From: Bdellovibrio sp. BCCA
Lineage (GTDB): Bacteria > Bdellovibrionota > Bdellovibrionia > Bdellovibrionales > Bdellovibrionaceae
Assembly: GCF_037996825.1 (NCBI RefSeq)
Contig: NZ_JBBNAC010000001.1
Location: 1,364,001-1,428,000, forward strand
Reading direction: 5' to 3'
Length of the DNA: 64,000 nt
Shown piece by piece: positions 36,218 to 43,806 of the stretch. The notes under the pieces are model-generated. The model was given only the letters and a program-made list of their open reading frames with translations, was not told the DNA's origin and did not search any database. The first letter of the stretch is position 1. The number at the start of each line of letters is the position of its first letter. The translations under genes and the position numbers were made by a program.

Positions 36218-36249
36218 GATCAAAGATCTCTATATATTGTATTTCAAAG

Positions 36250-36277
36250 GCGGATGCTTAAAACATCCGCTTTTTTT
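36250..36277 (+). terminator. Rho-independent terminator after the ferritin-like gene
   Basis: GCGGATG (36250-36256) pairs with CATCCGC (36264-36270) over a seven-base loop, followed by seven T. Confidence 0.88.
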
Positions 36278-36414
36278 GTGTCCTACGCGGGCGGTCTTAA
36301 CAATTCCCAAACAGGGTCCTGACATAAGCTTAGCGGAATCACAACGTGATATTCGCTCTGGAATCTTCTAAATTTCGCGCCATCTGAAATGGCTCAGAAA
36401 AAAAGGAGAGTTCC

Positions 36415-37236
36415 ATGAAATATTCCGTTTTAGCGGTGGCTTTGCTGATTTCTTCAGCATCATTCGCTCAATCTAAACATTTGTTCTCTGGCTCTGACAC
36501 TCTTGGTGGTGTGATGACAGATGCTATTATCGCAGCTGGTCTTGATCAATCCATCGGTTATGTTGGTGGTGGCTCTAGCGTTGGTGAAAAAGCATTGGTT
36601 AACGGCGAAATCGGTATCGCTCCAATGTCACGTCCGATGAAACCTGAAGCTATTGCGCAAGCGCAAGCAGCCGGTGTGACTCCTGTTGAACACGTGATTG
36701 CTTTGGATGGCGTTTCTGTTTTCGTTAACGGTACAAACGGCACTCCAGGTTTGGATTTGAACACGTTGGCTCGCATTTTCTCTTGCGAAATCACTTCTTG
36801 GGCGCAAATCCCAGGTTCTGGTAAATCAGGTGCGATCAATGCTTTCCGCCGTGATGACTTGTCTGGAACAACAGACACTTTTAAAACTTTGGTGGGCGTT
36901 AAAAAATTCGGAGCTTGCGTAACAATCGTTCATGAAACGGCTGATATCGCTGAAAAAACGGCAACGGATGCAGATGCTATCGGTTACGCAGGTTTGAGCG
37001 GTAAGAACGAACACAACCGTGAATTGGCGATCTCTGCTACGGGAACTGCTTATGTAGCTCCAACTGCGGGAACAATCCGCAACGGAACTTACCCACTTTC
37101 TCGTAAGTTGTTCGTTTATGAAGCTTCTGGTGCACGCACTCCAAACAAAGCGGAAGCGCAACTTCTTGAACAACTTTTGGATCGTTCTTTCCTTGATCCT
37201 ATCGTTCAAGATCACGATTTCGTCACTCTTGATTAA
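36415..37236 (+). CDS. PstS-like periplasmic oxyanion-binding protein
   Basis: 273 residues: signal peptide (MKYSVLAVALLISSASFA), then a PstS-type substrate-binding fold with FSGSDTLGGV, GGGSSVGEKALVNGEIGIAPMSRPM and the anion-contact RDDLSGTTDTF. Phosphate is the usual ligand. No pstCAB genes are near. It is followed after 12 bases by the tetraheme lipoprotein gene, implying a shared operon. A GGAGA site precedes the ATG. Confidence 0.82.
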   Translation: MKYSVLAVALLISSASFAQSKHLFSGSDTLGGVMTDAIIAAGLDQSIGYVGGGSSVGEKALVNGEIGIAPMSRPMKPEAIAQAQAAGVTPVEHVIALDGVSVFVNGTNGTPGLDLNTLARIFSCEITSWAQIPGSGKSGAINAFRRDDLSGTTDTFKTLVGVKKFGACVTIVHETADIAEKTATDADAIGYAGLSGKNEHNRELAISATGTAYVAPTAGTIRNGTYPLSRKLFVYEASGARTPNKAEAQLLEQLLDRSFLDPIVQDHDFVTLD

Positions 37237-37248
37237 TAAGGTGTTTAA

Positions 37249-39840
37249 GTGAAGCGACTCACACTTCTGCTTATATCATTGTTCACGCTTGCTTCCTGCG
37301 GAGGAAAATACACTCCCGGGGAGCAAGACCCTTTAAGAGCAATGCAATGCCCGAATACCGATAAGACGTACAGTTACGACGAAATCGAGTATGAAGGCGG
37401 AAAAGGCACGGGCCTCGTTAGTTTCAGCGACCTCCGCGATGGAATTAATTCGGCCTGCATGAGTTGCCATCAGGCTCCCGCACAAAGCGGGGGCTTTTCG
37501 TACATTGATTCCTATCGTGGTGAAGTCAGAACCATCGCAGGGAAAACACAATTCTATCCGGGATTTGTGGAAATCGCGGATAAAGTCACAGAATATATTT
37601 TCCACGCAGATCCCGATAAACGCATGCCTCCGACGGATCGCCGTCAAAAAAATCCAGAGGCTTTCATCAGTCTTGGAAAAAAGATTCAAGCTTGGGTTGC
37701 CGCAGGAAAACCTGATGGCAGTTTTTCTTTAGATCCTAATGCTCTGCCTGAAGCTCCACGTAAACCTCGCTTCCGAGGCAGTCAAAGTGGAAACTGCACG
37801 CCGAATTCAGAAATCATCGGCTTTGATTATTGGAAAGACCGTGAGTTTGCGAGCATGGAAAAGTTGCCGCAAAACTTAGCGGACACGGATTTATTTTCTT
37901 TAGATGCTTATGAGCTCGCGAAAAAAGGAACGGTGGCTTACACCGTGGAATATCCTTTGTGGGCCGACAACAACGGCAAAGGCCGTTGGCTTCATCTTCC
38001 TATGAAACTGGAAGGTTTAAAACTTGTTCGTCAAAAGGCAAAGTACATCGAAGGACAAGAAAACTTCTTTGATATGCCGGAGAACACGCGCCTTTATAAA
38101 TTCTTTTATAAAAAAATTAAAATGGCCAACGGAAAAACTCGCTACAAGCGTATCGAGACACGCATTATTGTTGTGCGCAAACCTTGGCAAAAAAGTCTTT
38201 TTGGCACTTACAAGTGGGACGACTCGGAACAAACAGCGACTCTTGTCGAAACTCCCTATCGTGACGGAACTCCATTTAAAGACACGGTCTTTACTGTGAC
38301 GGTGGATGAAGTCGCAAAAAAAGTGCGTAACTATGCAATTCCAGGAAGTCAGCGCTGTATTGATTGTCATATGGGTTCGCAAGGTCAAAACTTCGTGATT
38401 GGATTTTCCCCTCTGCAACTTCATCGCAGAAACATTGGAGAAGCCGGACGGGAAGAGCCTGTGCAGTATTCTGATCTTACACAAGTGGAGCGTTTAAGAA
38501 GTTACGGATTTATTGAAAATGCACCTGTCGAACGAGAATGGCCGATCTTGGAAAAAACTGGAACAAGTGTCGCGCGCAATGTCTATGAAACGCGTGCCGC
38601 GGGTTATATGGTTGGTAACTGTGCCCACTGTCACAACCCGAATGGTCTTGCGTTCACAAAAGAAAATGGCATTACGCTAAACCTCACGGCAGGATCTGTT
38701 TTCTCTTTCAATACGAAAACTCGTTCAACACAGATTCCATCGCGTTTGATCGTTCACCAAAACGGCGATTTGGATCAAAGCCATATTTGGAGAAAAGTGG
38801 CGGATTCTTCTCAACAGTTGGGTTTAACAAGCCAGATGCCGATGAATACTCCAGGCGGACCTGACTGTGGCATTTTGCGCATCATGGGTAAATGGGTGCG
38901 CAGCTTTGAAAGCGAACAAGCCGCGGAGCTTTGGGAACCCACTTGCAAAAAAGAAAATGATTTTAAATGGATCGATCAGGATTTCACGGTCTCAACAAGT
39001 GATGTGTTTGTGCCAAGAAGATCGGATTGGAATGATCCGGTTTCAGGAATGCCAGTGAAGTTCCGCAGTCTTGAGTTAACGCCCGAGTTAGAAAAGGCCA
39101 TCACGCAGGAAATTCCTGTGGGTTACTGGAATAAAAAAGAGATTTGCAGTTTTCCCGATAAAAATCTTCCTAAAGAAGAACAGCGTCCTTGGATGATGAA
39201 GGGAACTCAACCGAAACGTCCGTTTGGTGAAGTTTATTATTCAACACCAGGGTCGTGGTACTTCCGCACGTCTTGTATGAAATGCCACGGGCCGAATGCT
39301 GATGGAAACTCCTCACTGGCTCGCGGAATTATGCAGTGGTCAGGCGGAAGTGTGCGTGTTGCCGATCTTGCTAACGGCATGTTCGGTAAGCACGGGGAAA
39401 ACTTAAAAACATTTGATAGTGGTGGAAAAAACTATGCGCCTCAGTATTTATTCTGGATGGCCATGGAGGGAACTCGGGTGCAATTCCCTCCGGAGCTTTC
39501 AAGCTTCGTTGGAAAACACGGCGGTCAGATGCTCAATCAAATGCGTGAGAAATGTTTAAACCAAATTTCTACGGCCAAGACATCATCGCCTGTATTTATG
39601 GATCACGAGATCTTTAATAAAGTCTGTTTTGTGAACAACTTGCATCCAGGGCATCCGGATTTGGCGTTTAATCCAAACACCAATAAACCACTCTATCCGG
39701 AAAAAGTGGAAGCGTGGTTGGATCGCGCGGCCTTTAATATTGGTTATGCGATTTTCTATTATTTAAAAGATATGTCTCAAGGTGTTGTTCGACCTAGCAA
39801 CGACCAATGTGAAGTTCTTTATCCTAAGAAGGAGCAATAG
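37249..39840 (+). CDS. Four-heme c-type cytochrome lipoprotein
   Basis: 863 residues from GTG 37249. Lipoprotein signal peptide (LASC). Four CxxCH heme sites: CMSCH 70-74, CIDCH 370-374, CAHCH 458-462, CMKCH 676-680. The middle part (YPLWADNNGK... ETRIIVVRKPW) resembles the SO_2930 family of diheme cytochromes, and the first and last parts look like separate cytochrome domains. It is probably anchored to the outer membrane as an electron carrier or oxidase. It sits within a run of exported redox genes. Confidence 0.82.
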   Translation: MKRLTLLLISLFTLASCGGKYTPGEQDPLRAMQCPNTDKTYSYDEIEYEGGKGTGLVSFSDLRDGINSACMSCHQAPAQSGGFSYIDSYRGEVRTIAGKTQFYPGFVEIADKVTEYIFHADPDKRMPPTDRRQKNPEAFISLGKKIQAWVAAGKPDGSFSLDPNALPEAPRKPRFRGSQSGNCTPNSEIIGFDYWKDREFASMEKLPQNLADTDLFSLDAYELAKKGTVAYTVEYPLWADNNGKGRWLHLPMKLEGLKLVRQKAKYIEGQENFFDMPENTRLYKFFYKKIKMANGKTRYKRIETRIIVVRKPWQKSLFGTYKWDDSEQTATLVETPYRDGTPFKDTVFTVTVDEVAKKVRNYAIPGSQRCIDCHMGSQGQNFVIGFSPLQLHRRNIGEAGREEPVQYSDLTQVERLRSYGFIENAPVEREWPILEKTGTSVARNVYETRAAGYMVGNCAHCHNPNGLAFTKENGITLNLTAGSVFSFNTKTRSTQIPSRLIVHQNGDLDQSHIWRKVADSSQQLGLTSQMPMNTPGGPDCGILRIMGKWVRSFESEQAAELWEPTCKKENDFKWIDQDFTVSTSDVFVPRRSDWNDPVSGMPVKFRSLELTPELEKAITQEIPVGYWNKKEICSFPDKNLPKEEQRPWMMKGTQPKRPFGEVYYSTPGSWYFRTSCMKCHGPNADGNSSLARGIMQWSGGSVRVADLANGMFGKHGENLKTFDSGGKNYAPQYLFWMAMEGTRVQFPPELSSFVGKHGGQMLNQMREKCLNQISTAKTSSPVFMDHEIFNKVCFVNNLHPGHPDLAFNPNTNKPLYPEKVEAWLDRAAFNIGYAIFYYLKDMSQGVVRPSNDQCEVLYPKKEQ

Positions 39841-39842
39841 TT

Positions 39843-40418
39843 ATGAAATACGTTTTATTTGTTTTATTTTTTATGTGCTCTCCCGGTTTTGCGGCGACGT
39901 CTTTTAAGATGACGAAGGAAAGCGGCACGACAAATTTCTTAGCGATTGGAAATCCCAGCGCGATCCGTATTGACGGAAAAGGCGAAGGACCTGAAGGAAC
40001 TTTGTTGGCGCAAGAAAAGGGCGAAAACTGGATTGTCTCGGGCGACCTTCGTGTGAACCTTAAAAACACGGATACCGGTATTGCTCTTCGCGATCGTCAT
40101 ATGAAAGAAAAATATCTTGAAGTCGGTAAATTCGAAAATGCGACTTTAACAGTCAACGATCTGACGGTTCCAAAAAATGCGGTGACTAAAGAATCAGAAA
40201 CAAAGTTGCCGTTTACTGGAACTTTAGATCTGCATGGAATCAAGAAGCCTGTGCAAGGCGAGTTTGTTGTGAAGTCTTCGAAAGAAGGCCTCAAAATGAC
40301 GGCGAGCTTTCAATTAAAACTTTCTGATTTTGGTATCGTGATTCCTTCTTTTGCGGGCATCACGGTGGCTGACCAGGTTGAAGTGAACACGGCTTCTACA
40401 GTCGAGAGGCTGCAATGA
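39843..40418 (+). CDS. YceI-family periplasmic protein
   Basis: 191 residues: signal peptide (to GFA), then the YceI lipocalin-like barrel (VSGDLRVNLKNTDTGIALRDRHM; LPFTGTLDLHGIKKPV). YceI proteins bind isoprenoid quinones or other lipids. It begins two bases after the tetraheme gene and ends overlapping the diheme gene, so it is part of the same operon and might supply or shield a lipid electron carrier. Confidence 0.88.
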   Translation: MKYVLFVLFFMCSPGFAATSFKMTKESGTTNFLAIGNPSAIRIDGKGEGPEGTLLAQEKGENWIVSGDLRVNLKNTDTGIALRDRHMKEKYLEVGKFENATLTVNDLTVPKNAVTKESETKLPFTGTLDLHGIKKPVQGEFVVKSSKEGLKMTASFQLKLSDFGIVIPSFAGITVADQVEVNTASTVERLQ

Positions 40419-41059
40419 AAATAAATCTGCTTTTTGCAGTGCTTGTGGCGACGGCTCTTGGGGCTTGCAACTACAATCACGTCAAAAAAGAAAATGCGGC
40501 AATGGGTGGAGGTCTTGGTAAACAGGAAGCCATGATTGCTGCCAGCCTTGATTACCAAAGCTTGAATATGGCAGTGATTGGACCAGAGTGTCTTCGCTGT
40601 CATTCAACTCCGGGGGGTGTTCAGGGAGGTTTGAATCTTGAAACCTATCAACAAGTGCGCGCAAATCTAAGCCGCATTTATTATCGCTCGATCGAAAAAA
40701 GAGACATGCCGTCAGGTGGTTTGGGCGCAGCTCAATATGATTTGCTTAAAGCCTGGATTGAAGCCGGAGGACCTGAGCGCAACACAGGTCGCGGTAACGC
40801 CCGGCCGATCAAAGGACCTATCAACTGGCCTGTGATTAAAAACCAAGTTTTAAAATCAAGCTGTCTTGATTGTCATCGTGGTGCCAACGCGGATGCAGGG
40901 CTTGATTTTGAATCACTGGATGTTGTGAGAAAAAACATCGGACGTATTTTTGATTCGGCCATTGTGAAGCAAACCATGCCACTAGAACCTTATGGAGCTT
41001 TGACGGAAGCTGAAAAACAAGCCCTGATGAAGTGGATTTCGCAAGGAATGCCAGAGTGA
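40415..41059 (+). CDS. Diheme c-type cytochrome lipoprotein
   Basis: 214 residues. Lipobox LGAC (Cys18). Two heme sites, CLRCH (59-63) and CLDCH (150-154), lie in two similar halves, each with a following MP motif (RDMPSGG, QTMPLEP) that could supply the axial Met. It overlaps both neighbours by a few bases. Confidence 0.85.
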   Translation: MKINLLFAVLVATALGACNYNHVKKENAAMGGGLGKQEAMIAASLDYQSLNMAVIGPECLRCHSTPGGVQGGLNLETYQQVRANLSRIYYRSIEKRDMPSGGLGAAQYDLLKAWIEAGGPERNTGRGNARPIKGPINWPVIKNQVLKSSCLDCHRGANADAGLDFESLDVVRKNIGRIFDSAIVKQTMPLEPYGALTEAEKQALMKWISQGMPE

Positions 41060-42180
41060 AGTATTTTTTCGTTCTTGTTCTGTTTTTATTTGCTAATAAA
41101 TCTTTCGCTTACCCTGAAATGATTCGACACGGTTACGTGAACTGCATGGCCTGTCACACGACTCATCAAGGCGGAGACATGCTCTCAAAATATGGCCGGG
41201 AGCTGGGGAAAGAGCTGTTCTCCCGCAACGATTCTATTTTTAAAGCTCCTAATGCTGAGAAAAATTATTGGGAAATTGAGACGCCCGAATGGTTGCGTGT
41301 CGGTGCGAACGTTCGTCTTTTACAAACCATGACGGAAAATTCAGTGGCTTCCAAGGGCCGCTTTATGTTTATGCAAGTGGATATCGATACGCTTTTTAAG
41401 GTGAGCGATAAAACAATTGTGTATGTCTCTGTCGGTCGCTATGAACCGTCAAAGTCTGATGCTGAGTGGAGAGATTTTATCTATATGCCAAGAGCGTGGG
41501 CTCAGTATTCCGAAAACTGGCGCGGCGGAGCTGAAGCCGCTTCTTTGCGCGCAGGACGTTTTTATCCTGTGTACGGTTTGAATATCGCTGAGCACACTTA
41601 TGTGACCCGTCGTTATTTAGATTTTAATCCGGGACAAGAAAGAGTTTCAGCGGAACTTGCGTGGAGCAATGAAAACTACCAGGTCGTTGCAACGGGTCTT
41701 GCCCAGCGCGCTCGCTTTGACAAATACGACGATGAAAAAGGTTACGTTCTGCAAGTTTCCAAGGTATTTGGAAAAACAGCGCGTGCCGGTGTGAATATCT
41801 ATCGTAGTAAACTCTCACAACAAGGTGGAGATCAGGATAAAGCGTTCGAAGGTATTTTCGCTTTGATTGGCTGGACTCCGGAAATATCAATACTGTTTCA
41901 AGCTGATAAGATTTATTATCCCGACGGAAAAACAGGATTCGTTGATTTCTTAAAATTGGGTTATGAGTACACTCAAGGTGTGCAACTTTTCCTGACTCAA
42001 GAATATTACAACGCAGATACTGAGAAGACAGATCCCCATTTGGAGTCTTACGGTATTGGTGTTCAGTATTTCCCATTTCCTAATTTTGATTTCTTTGCCA
42101 CGTACAAAAAAACAAAAGACTCGTCACAGCTTGATGAATATCAAAATGTGGTTTGGTTGATTGCACATATTTATTTGTAG
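41056..42180 (+). CDS. Outer-membrane beta-barrel with N-terminal heme site
   Basis: 374 residues from GTG 41056 (GTGA overlap with the diheme stop). Signal peptide to SFA, then GYVNCMACHTTHQGG with a heme site at C30-H34, then alternating beta strands to the end (WLIAHIYL). A mono-heme domain fused to a porin-like barrel is reminiscent in principle of porin-cytochrome conduits, but I do not recognise the family. Its position between two cytochrome genes and a porin supports a role in moving electrons or substrate across the outer membrane. Confidence 0.7.
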   Translation: MKYFFVLVLFLFANKSFAYPEMIRHGYVNCMACHTTHQGGDMLSKYGRELGKELFSRNDSIFKAPNAEKNYWEIETPEWLRVGANVRLLQTMTENSVASKGRFMFMQVDIDTLFKVSDKTIVYVSVGRYEPSKSDAEWRDFIYMPRAWAQYSENWRGGAEAASLRAGRFYPVYGLNIAEHTYVTRRYLDFNPGQERVSAELAWSNENYQVVATGLAQRARFDKYDDEKGYVLQVSKVFGKTARAGVNIYRSKLSQQGGDQDKAFEGIFALIGWTPEISILFQADKIYYPDGKTGFVDFLKLGYEYTQGVQLFLTQEYYNADTEKTDPHLESYGIGVQYFPFPNFDFFATYKKTKDSSQLDEYQNVVWLIAHIYL

Positions 42181-42188
42181 GAGTTTTT

Positions 42189-43421
42189 ATGAAGTTCGGT
42201 CTTGTATTATTCATTCTTATCGTAACGTGTTTTGCAAAAGAGCAAACTACCGTTGTGACACCTTCTGAGACTAAAGCTGCAAGTGAAATGACGATGCCAA
42301 AAGAGGAAGCGACGCCAACTCCGGCGCCTGCACCACCACCAGCTGTGGCAACCACCGTCGCTGATGTCATTCCAAAAAAAGAAACTCCAAAAGAAGAGCC
42401 CTTTCAATTTTTTGGTGACTTCCGTTATCGCCAGCAGATGGAAACACAAGCTCCAAAACAACAGCGAAGCATTCAGCGTATTCAAGCGCGTTTTGGATTA
42501 ACCAGTCAGCTTCATGAAGATTTAAAAGTGACTTTGCGTTTGATGACGGGAAGTTCTGCGAATAGCGGAAATCAAACTTTGGGCGACGAAAAATCCCCCG
42601 GGATGCCTCGCCGTAATTTTGGCTTGGATCAAGCGTTCTTTGACTACAGGCCCCTCTCAGTTTTAAATATTTACGGCGGCAAGATGCCACAGCCACTGAC
42701 GTTTGCGGGGAAAAACCAAATGCTTTTGGATCGTGACATCACGTTGGAGGGTTTAGGTCTTAAATACAATCAGCCGTTAAACGATGAATGGAGTTTCTTC
42801 ACTCAGGGAGGAATGTTCTGGGTGCGTGAAAACTACGACTCCCAATTCGGTGAAGAACAGACGGATAATTTTTTAAATGCGATTCAAATCGGAGCGCAGT
42901 GGAAGAAACAAGATTGGACCGTTCTTTTGGGCGTGGGTTCATTCTCATATACAGATCTTAAGGACAATCCTCCGGCGAATATCACATCGGGCGCAACAGG
43001 CAACGGCAATACGCTGGATATCAATGGCAACTATCCGACAAACTTTGACATCGAACAGGCGTTTATCGAAGTCAAAAAGAAACTCGGCTCTTGGGATCTT
43101 TCAGCGTTTTATGAAACTCTTAAAAACAAAGATACAGATACACTTAATAAGGCCCACGCTTATGGTCTGATTGCCGTTTACAAGGCTTGGAGTCTGACGT
43201 GGACTCAAGAGGAAGTGCAAAAGGATGCCGTGCTGGGTGTTTTCACAGACTCTGATTTTGGTGGAGGTGTGACTTCCACGCGTGGTCAGGTGTGGAGTCT
43301 CGCATATAAAATCACAAAGAAAGTGCAAGTGCAGTACACAGTGTTTAAGAATGAAAATTCAATCGACACCATTCCGATGAACTATGACCGCACTCACATA
43401 GATCTTTTAATGACGTTCTAA
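42189..43421 (+). CDS. Putative outer-membrane porin
   Basis: 410 residues from ATG 42189 (TAGGAG upstream). Signal peptide (to CFA), then a Pro/Ala/Thr/Glu linker (about residues 20-60) and a beta-rich barrel with many amphipathic strands ending in HIDLLMTF. It resembles the broad 'putative porin' group. It is the last gene of the redox operon and ends one base from a convergent gene. Confidence 0.72.
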   Translation: MKFGLVLFILIVTCFAKEQTTVVTPSETKAASEMTMPKEEATPTPAPAPPPAVATTVADVIPKKETPKEEPFQFFGDFRYRQQMETQAPKQQRSIQRIQARFGLTSQLHEDLKVTLRLMTGSSANSGNQTLGDEKSPGMPRRNFGLDQAFFDYRPLSVLNIYGGKMPQPLTFAGKNQMLLDRDITLEGLGLKYNQPLNDEWSFFTQGGMFWVRENYDSQFGEEQTDNFLNAIQIGAQWKKQDWTVLLGVGSFSYTDLKDNPPANITSGATGNGNTLDINGNYPTNFDIEQAFIEVKKKLGSWDLSAFYETLKNKDTDTLNKAHAYGLIAVYKAWSLTWTQEEVQKDAVLGVFTDSDFGGGVTSTRGQVWSLAYKITKKVQVQYTVFKNENSIDTIPMNYDRTHIDLLMTF

Positions 43422-43422
43422 C

Positions 43423-43806
43423 TTATTTGCAAACCAGGGTGTGGATGATATCGCTGGCGTAAGCGTAAAGCATATCTTCCTCGCCTTGGAACTCAGGGCG
43501 TCCCATCATCAAAGACACGACAAGTTCTTGCGAAATGCGACGAGCTTTGCTGAAGTCATCCACCGTTTTGTTTTCAATGACAATGATCGACTTTTCTTTT
43601 CCAGATATTTTGAAAACACCTTCTTTAGGATCTTTGAGATCTTGATACCTATGAAGGTTAATATCTTCTAAAGTCACCTGTGTGTCAGAACCCGTTTGTT
43701 CGACAACAAGCTGGTGAGTTTGCGTGGTTCCTACGCAGCGACTGACCGGCGCCGCAAAAGCGGGAAGAGTAAAAAGAAATGCTAATGATGTGATGACGAT
43801 TTTCAT
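43423..43806 (-). CDS. Small exported protein of unknown function
   Basis: 127 residues: signal peptide (MKIVITSLAFLFTLPAFA), then a short beta-rich domain with two cysteines (C24 and the penultimate C126) likely to form a disulfide. A strong AGGAGG site precedes the ATG. No family recognised. It is divergent from the HerA-like gene. Confidence 0.7.
   Translation of the reverse strand: MKIVITSLAFLFTLPAFAAPVSRCVGTTQTHQLVVEQTGSDTQVTLEDINLHRYQDLKDPKEGVFKISGKEKSIIVIENKTVDDFSKARRISQELVVSLMMGRPEFQGEEDMLYAYASDIIHTLVCK

Follow-up and report, generated by a model that had tools for sequence, protein, structure and literature searches.

The locus analysed here raises the question of why a PstS-like binding protein should be encoded together with c-type cytochromes and outer-membrane porins, and what such an assembly might do. 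The window (a 64,000-nt stretch of Bdellovibrio DNA) contains six genes, g1 to g6, all on the + strand between positions 36415 and 43421. An earlier note had described them as same-strand genes separated by gaps of 2-12 bases or overlapping, with export signals on all six and seven CxxCH sites spread over three products; the ORF coordinates and a reading of the protein sequences bear this out. The features of the region are as follows.

36246..36274, + strand: hairpin terminating the upstream ferritin gene (11-pair stem, then T run); upstream limit of the operon
36296..36328, + strand: PHO-box-like array of three 11-bp direct repeats; likely PhoB site according to the motif model
36415..37236, + strand: g1, PstS-like periplasmic binding protein, 273 aa; PF12849, 100.5 bits; phosphate-contact motifs
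37249..39840, + strand: g2, tetraheme lipoprotein with SO2930-like domain, 863 aa; 4 CxxCH; TIGR03806, 98.1 bits, below cut-off
39843..40418, + strand: g3, exported YceI-family protein, 191 aa, optional member; PF04264, 64.1 bits
40415..41059, + strand: g4, diheme lipoprotein, 214 aa; 2 CxxCH; PSCyt1, 33.7 bits
41056..42180, + strand: g5, fusion of a monoheme cytochrome with a 16-stranded porin, 374 aa; CxxCH; strand model; Cyc2-like heme segment
42189..43421, + strand: g6, Porin_5 outer-membrane porin, 410 aa; PF16930, 98.3 bits

Intervals are 12 bases between g1 and g2, 2 between g2 and g3 and 8 between g5 and g6, while g3/g4 and g4/g5 overlap by 4 bases each. The start codon of g2 is GTG. 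That of g5 is the GTG at 41056, overlapping the g4 stop, and that of g6 the ATG at 42189; the starts given in the ORF list (41032 and a TTG at 42153, respectively) are too early. Hydrophobic export leaders on all six products and lipoboxes in g2 (LASC) and g4 (LGAC) were recognized by reading the sequence rather than with a predictor. The CxxCH motifs number four in g2, two in g4 and one in g5. Downstream, the operon is bounded by a convergent gene ending at 43423. The ferritin and DJ-1 genes on the upstream side were considered as possible members and rejected, given the intervening terminator and the persistence of the ferritin gene in congeners that lack the operon.

To characterize the promoter, a 20-base PHO-box model was built on 23 canonical pstS promoters of Bdellovibrionota (consensus CCTAATAAAACCCTAACAAT) and scored on operon promoters outside its training set. 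The top match to this model across the 64-kb window falls at 36307-36326, within the array at 36296-36328, which reads CTTAACAATTC CCAAACAGGGT CCTGACATAAG. The array has an 11-bp chain score of 26.0, a value reached in none of 300 shuffles and lost at other periods. No clear signal came from the E. coli PHO consensus, whereas the lineage-specific model gave one. Scores of ten operon promoters (orthologous, and so not fully independent) were 13.3, 5.5, 8.7, 15.6, 18.2, 24.3, 14.6, 19.7, 8.7 and 18.8. Thus seven of the ten score 13 or more, against 5 of 412 other upstream regions, from which known pst and pho promoters had been removed, and none of 81 regions upstream of the related core module described below. 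Operon promoters rank above other upstream regions with p about 1e-7; for the core module the corresponding value is p=0.97. The PHO box is therefore specific to the PstS-bearing form, core modules without PstS lacking the signal. One operon site, that of genome G035, is weak (5.5). The pstS-derived model is validated by the phoU-phoB-phoR promoter of G035, which was likewise kept out of training and scores 23.4; the same type of box occurs at pstS and phoU-phoB-phoR promoters. An exact tandem pattern has three matches in the 4.0-Mb genome, two of them being the overlapping repeats at the operon promoter and the third lying just beyond the end of a LysR-type gene; by count there is no genome-wide enrichment of this pattern, reversed-pattern controls likewise giving three. 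Elsewhere in the window, a pair of overlapping PHO-like sites, scoring 9.3 and 9.2, lies on the minus strand at 459-489, ahead of a MazG-like ORF (2-382). Altogether, the operon looks Pho-regulated, with the motif pointing to PhoB as the regulator.

The first gene product, g1, matches PF12849 (PBP_like_2) with 100.5 bits (cut-off 27, E=1.8e-28) and TIGR02136 with 140.5 bits; as the latter value is below the cut-off of 206.6, we call g1 PstS-like rather than a certified PstS. Alignment with 4pqj/4omb indicates that g1 keeps the GSDTL, GSS, MSR and SGT phosphate-contact motifs, and its closest solved relatives are phosphate-binding proteins. It is a second copy: all five operon genomes tested carry a canonical PstS besides the operon PstS. 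The canonical pst genes of the source genome are found away from the operon, pstS being followed by three genes of pstCAB size and place.

Whether the six genes belong together was addressed in a survey confined to Bdellovibrionota. Among 369 genomes searched, g2 orthologs above 1000 bits were found in ten besides the source genome, and the operon carriers belong to three families; Bdellovibrio sp. qaytius, a named complete genome, has the operon. Wherever the contig allows it to be read, the order PstS, tetraheme protein, (YceI), diheme protein, barrel, porin is kept in all ten, and PstS heads the cytochrome block in every operon with a readable start. The six-gene set is thus a real unit and not a chance assembly. 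Separation of the genes in relatives, which the earlier note had named as the finding that would undo its reading, did not occur: congeners lack the entire block. No g2 was found in 23 congeners searched, and in several, G006 among them, nothing stands between the ferritin gene and the gene that here lies downstream of the operon. Conserved order and empty site together indicate that the block was gained or lost in one piece. In pairwise comparisons g1, g2, g4 and g6 diverge in step with one another (Mantel r 0.83-0.94); g5 follows its partners more loosely (Mantel r 0.45-0.58) and may have been exchanged in G198 and G200. YceI is missing from five sister operons (G029, G195, G198, G200 and G211), two of which (G029 and G195) have an extra porin gene ahead of PstS. 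The g3 protein, a clear YceI by sequence (PF04264, 64.1 bits, cut-off 23.7, E=2.5e-17), is hence an optional member, and the lipid or quinone partner once proposed on its account is not essential.

Both lipoproteins carry heme motifs. The four CxxCH of g2 are invariant in 11 orthologs. The match of g2 to TIGR03806 (SO2930; 98.1 bits, E=5.4e-28) does not reach the cut-off of 313.3 and reflects one shared domain; this central domain is found too in SO2930-like proteins of genomes without the operon, and on plasmids g2 finds only weak SO2930-like matches. The protein has a large, strongly conserved domain of unassigned function (mean column identity 65%), but no catalytic domain of a known kind, molybdopterin and copper types included; its structure model is poor (pLDDT 49). 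The family match of g4 is to PSCyt1/cytochrome (33.7 bits), and in most orthologs MP is conserved after each heme. Overall, a conserved Met lies close to no fewer than four of the seven hemes (MPP and MPM in g2, MP in g4). These Met residues suggest high potentials, with which electron uptake fits better than reduction of ferric minerals.

The g5 protein has no family match in Pfam or NCBIfam. Its heme motif, CMACH, occupies residues 30-34, the three heme residues being invariant in 20 relatives. In the structure model (mean pLDDT 80) exactly 16 strands follow the N-terminal heme segment, itself modelled with low confidence; fold searches place OprO (Z 23.7) and OprP (Z 23.5) among the best matches, tied with general porins. 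This layout, a single CxxCH beside the signal peptide followed by a 16-stranded barrel, is that of Cyc2, the fused monoheme cytochrome-porin of iron oxidizers, 16-stranded and based on OprO/OprP templates (PMC8406198). When the g5 family was compared by hhalign with Cyc2-like sequences (plasmid sequences fetched by the published Cyc2 motif), 44 columns covering the heme segment only were aligned with 95.5% probability; control comparisons with other CxxCH families, a porin family and a reversed profile gave 0.5-17%. On this evidence the heme segment of g5 is specifically Cyc2-like, and the family consensus has LTxYGR past the heme, as another point of likeness. In contrast, the barrel sequences have no detectable similarity. 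The Cyc2 motif AXPXFAR[Q/K][T/Y] is not present ahead of the g5 heme, where A-Y-P-E-M-I-R-H-G has A, P and R at equal spacing and the remainder different; PXL is likewise absent past the heme, where CHTTHQGGDML has an L without a preceding P. Since the defining motif is lacking, g5 was ruled out as a member of Cyc2. What had been described as a heme barrel is better termed a Cyc2-like fused cytochrome-porin.

The porin encoded by g6 matches Porin_5 (PF16930, 98.3 bits, E=5.2e-28) and, in the window, gives no match to PF07396 (Porin_O_P). The last gene is a PF07396 member in three divergent sister operons (L085, L087 and L088; G074, G075 and G302). Membership of Porin_O_P is in itself no proof of a phosphate substrate, as ExtI of Geobacter, an OprO/OprP-family porin beside cytochromes, is reported to be unresponsive to phosphate (PMC5877670). 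In G074 the porin gene, and with it the operon, is followed by a gene whose secreted product has a SidE-type phosphodiesterase domain (L088 1682-2599).

Part of the operon exists independently. A trio made of diheme lipoprotein, YceI and CxxCH barrel is widespread: a barrel relative is present in 162 of 241 genomes and, among 86 barrel loci (some counted twice from different fetches), the same gene run holds YceI in 71 and the diheme protein in 67. The six-gene operon is this older core module joined by PstS, the tetraheme protein and the porin. Copies of the module adjoin genes for a copper-type P-ATPase, an RND pump, and DUF6488-like or ankyrin-cupredoxin proteins (L047, L051, L105, L113, L115, L120, L121, L122, L124 and L129), neighbours that suggest that some copies may function in copper handling. 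A protein of about 600 residues (L039 3690-5498) recurs beside the core module, 18 further loci having relatives of it; the only member scanned, that of L038, had no Pfam match. In Bdellovibrio sp. qaytius (CP025734), a run of genes on one strand, coxB-coxA-coxC-coxD-ctaB-YceI-CxxCH barrel (L108 2764-9143), ties the barrel family to a terminal oxidase, much as cyc2 belongs to the rus operon (PMC10654088). Nearly all congeners have a second family of CxxCH barrels, a divergent one (G000:C1:2434018-2435127; L175 5995-7161), adjoining YceI and CxxCH proteins encoded on the opposite strand.

How does this set compare with known systems? Like phosphate uptake of the PstSCAB/OprP type, it has a PstS-type binding protein, an anion porin and a PHO box; unlike it, the operon has no ABC permease, pstSCAB being separate on the chromosome. 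To our knowledge, known examples of such uptake include no outer-membrane cytochromes. An electron conduit in the outer membrane recalls the Mtr and Pcc systems. Mtr-type conduits consist of a separate 26-stranded porin and a decaheme cytochrome, and Pcc has 8- and 12-heme cytochromes, whereas here a 16-stranded fused barrel is combined with tetraheme and diheme lipoproteins. The ext cluster of Geobacter shares the association of an OprO/OprP-family porin (ExtI) with c-type cytochromes but is described without PstS or a fused cytochrome-porin (PMC5877670). Cyc2 differs further in its setting, g5 being encoded alongside PstS and multiheme lipoproteins in a Pho-type operon. Open papers on Bdellovibrio Pho control and electron transfer and on Pho-controlled cytochromes yielded no described system with this gene set, in agreement with the earlier note, whose proposals of electron and substrate passage at the outer membrane and of an anion partner are likewise supported; PHO box, PstS motifs and the OprO/OprP-family porins of the sister operons allow the anion to be named as phosphate.

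On balance, we lean towards a Pho-regulon operon for phosphate scavenging at the outer membrane that brings along an electron conduit of its own. In cells starved of phosphate, PhoB would bind the repeats at 36296-36328 and switch on the six genes, as the motif suggests. Judging from their families, the last-gene porin would admit phosphate and the PstS paralog capture it in the periplasm, for import by the chromosomal PstCAB. Heme motifs, lipoboxes and the 16-strand model suggest that g2, g4 and g5 may conduct electrons across the outer membrane; YceI would be an optional accessory inherited with the older core module. The built-in conduit may act on iron-bound phosphate. A tentative proposal is that it frees phosphate by a redox change of iron, for collection by the porin and binding protein of the same operon: electrons might reduce or oxidize the iron, or some other metal, that holds phosphate at the surface, so that release takes place beside the porin. 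Reduction would be the direction that yields phosphate, and it has a precedent in secreted reductants, which are produced under phosphorus stress and can liberate phosphate held by iron (McRose and Newman 2021, as cited in PMC12852198). Counting against the reductive version are the high potentials suggested by the Met residues near the hemes, which rather favour Fe2+ oxidation; against the Pho-operon explanation as a whole count the weak G035 site and the lack of an inner-membrane partner among the operon genes.

In one alternative, a Cyc2-like oxidation of iron(II), electrons from dissolved Fe2+ would enter via g5 and reach a terminal oxidase via the lipoproteins, PstS and the porin being present because the ferric iron formed takes phosphate out of the medium. 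The heme segment of g5 (95.5% against 0.5-17% in controls), its 16 strands, Met close to several hemes and the qaytius barrel relative that closes the cox operon, recalling rus (PMC10654088), would all suit this scheme; it is nevertheless unlikely, for the defining Cyc2 motif is missing, control appears to be by phosphate rather than by iron or energy, and the operon includes neither an oxidase nor a rusticyanin-like carrier.

Phosphate control would also be consistent with a phosphorus substrate being oxidized at the outer membrane. Here g2, with its strongly conserved large domain of unassigned function, would be the enzyme acting on reduced phosphorus or another oxyanion (phosphite, arsenite, selenite), and the other hemes the electron exit. 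We give this little credence, because g2 has no known catalytic domain and its central domain recurs in SO2930-like proteins where the operon is absent. That the diheme-YceI-barrel core is widespread without a PHO box might even mean that the operon serves general electron exchange at the outer membrane, unrelated to phosphate, PstS and the PHO-like site being incidental; such a coincidence is very improbable when PstS comes first in every cytochrome block with a readable start, the PHO box is confined to the PstS-bearing form and three operons have an OprO/OprP-family porin.

In conclusion, an operon predicted to respond to phosphate starvation and to encode an electron conduit of the outer membrane suggests an undescribed, electron-driven form of phosphate acquisition; we know of no protein conduit dedicated to freeing iron-bound phosphate. 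The class of fused cytochrome-porins is widened from Cyc2 to a phylum-wide family, which matters where Cyc2-like genes serve as markers of iron oxidation. If the proposal is true, outer-membrane electron transfer would serve nutrient acquisition, beyond respiration, and would do so in predatory bacteria, a group in which nobody searches for it.
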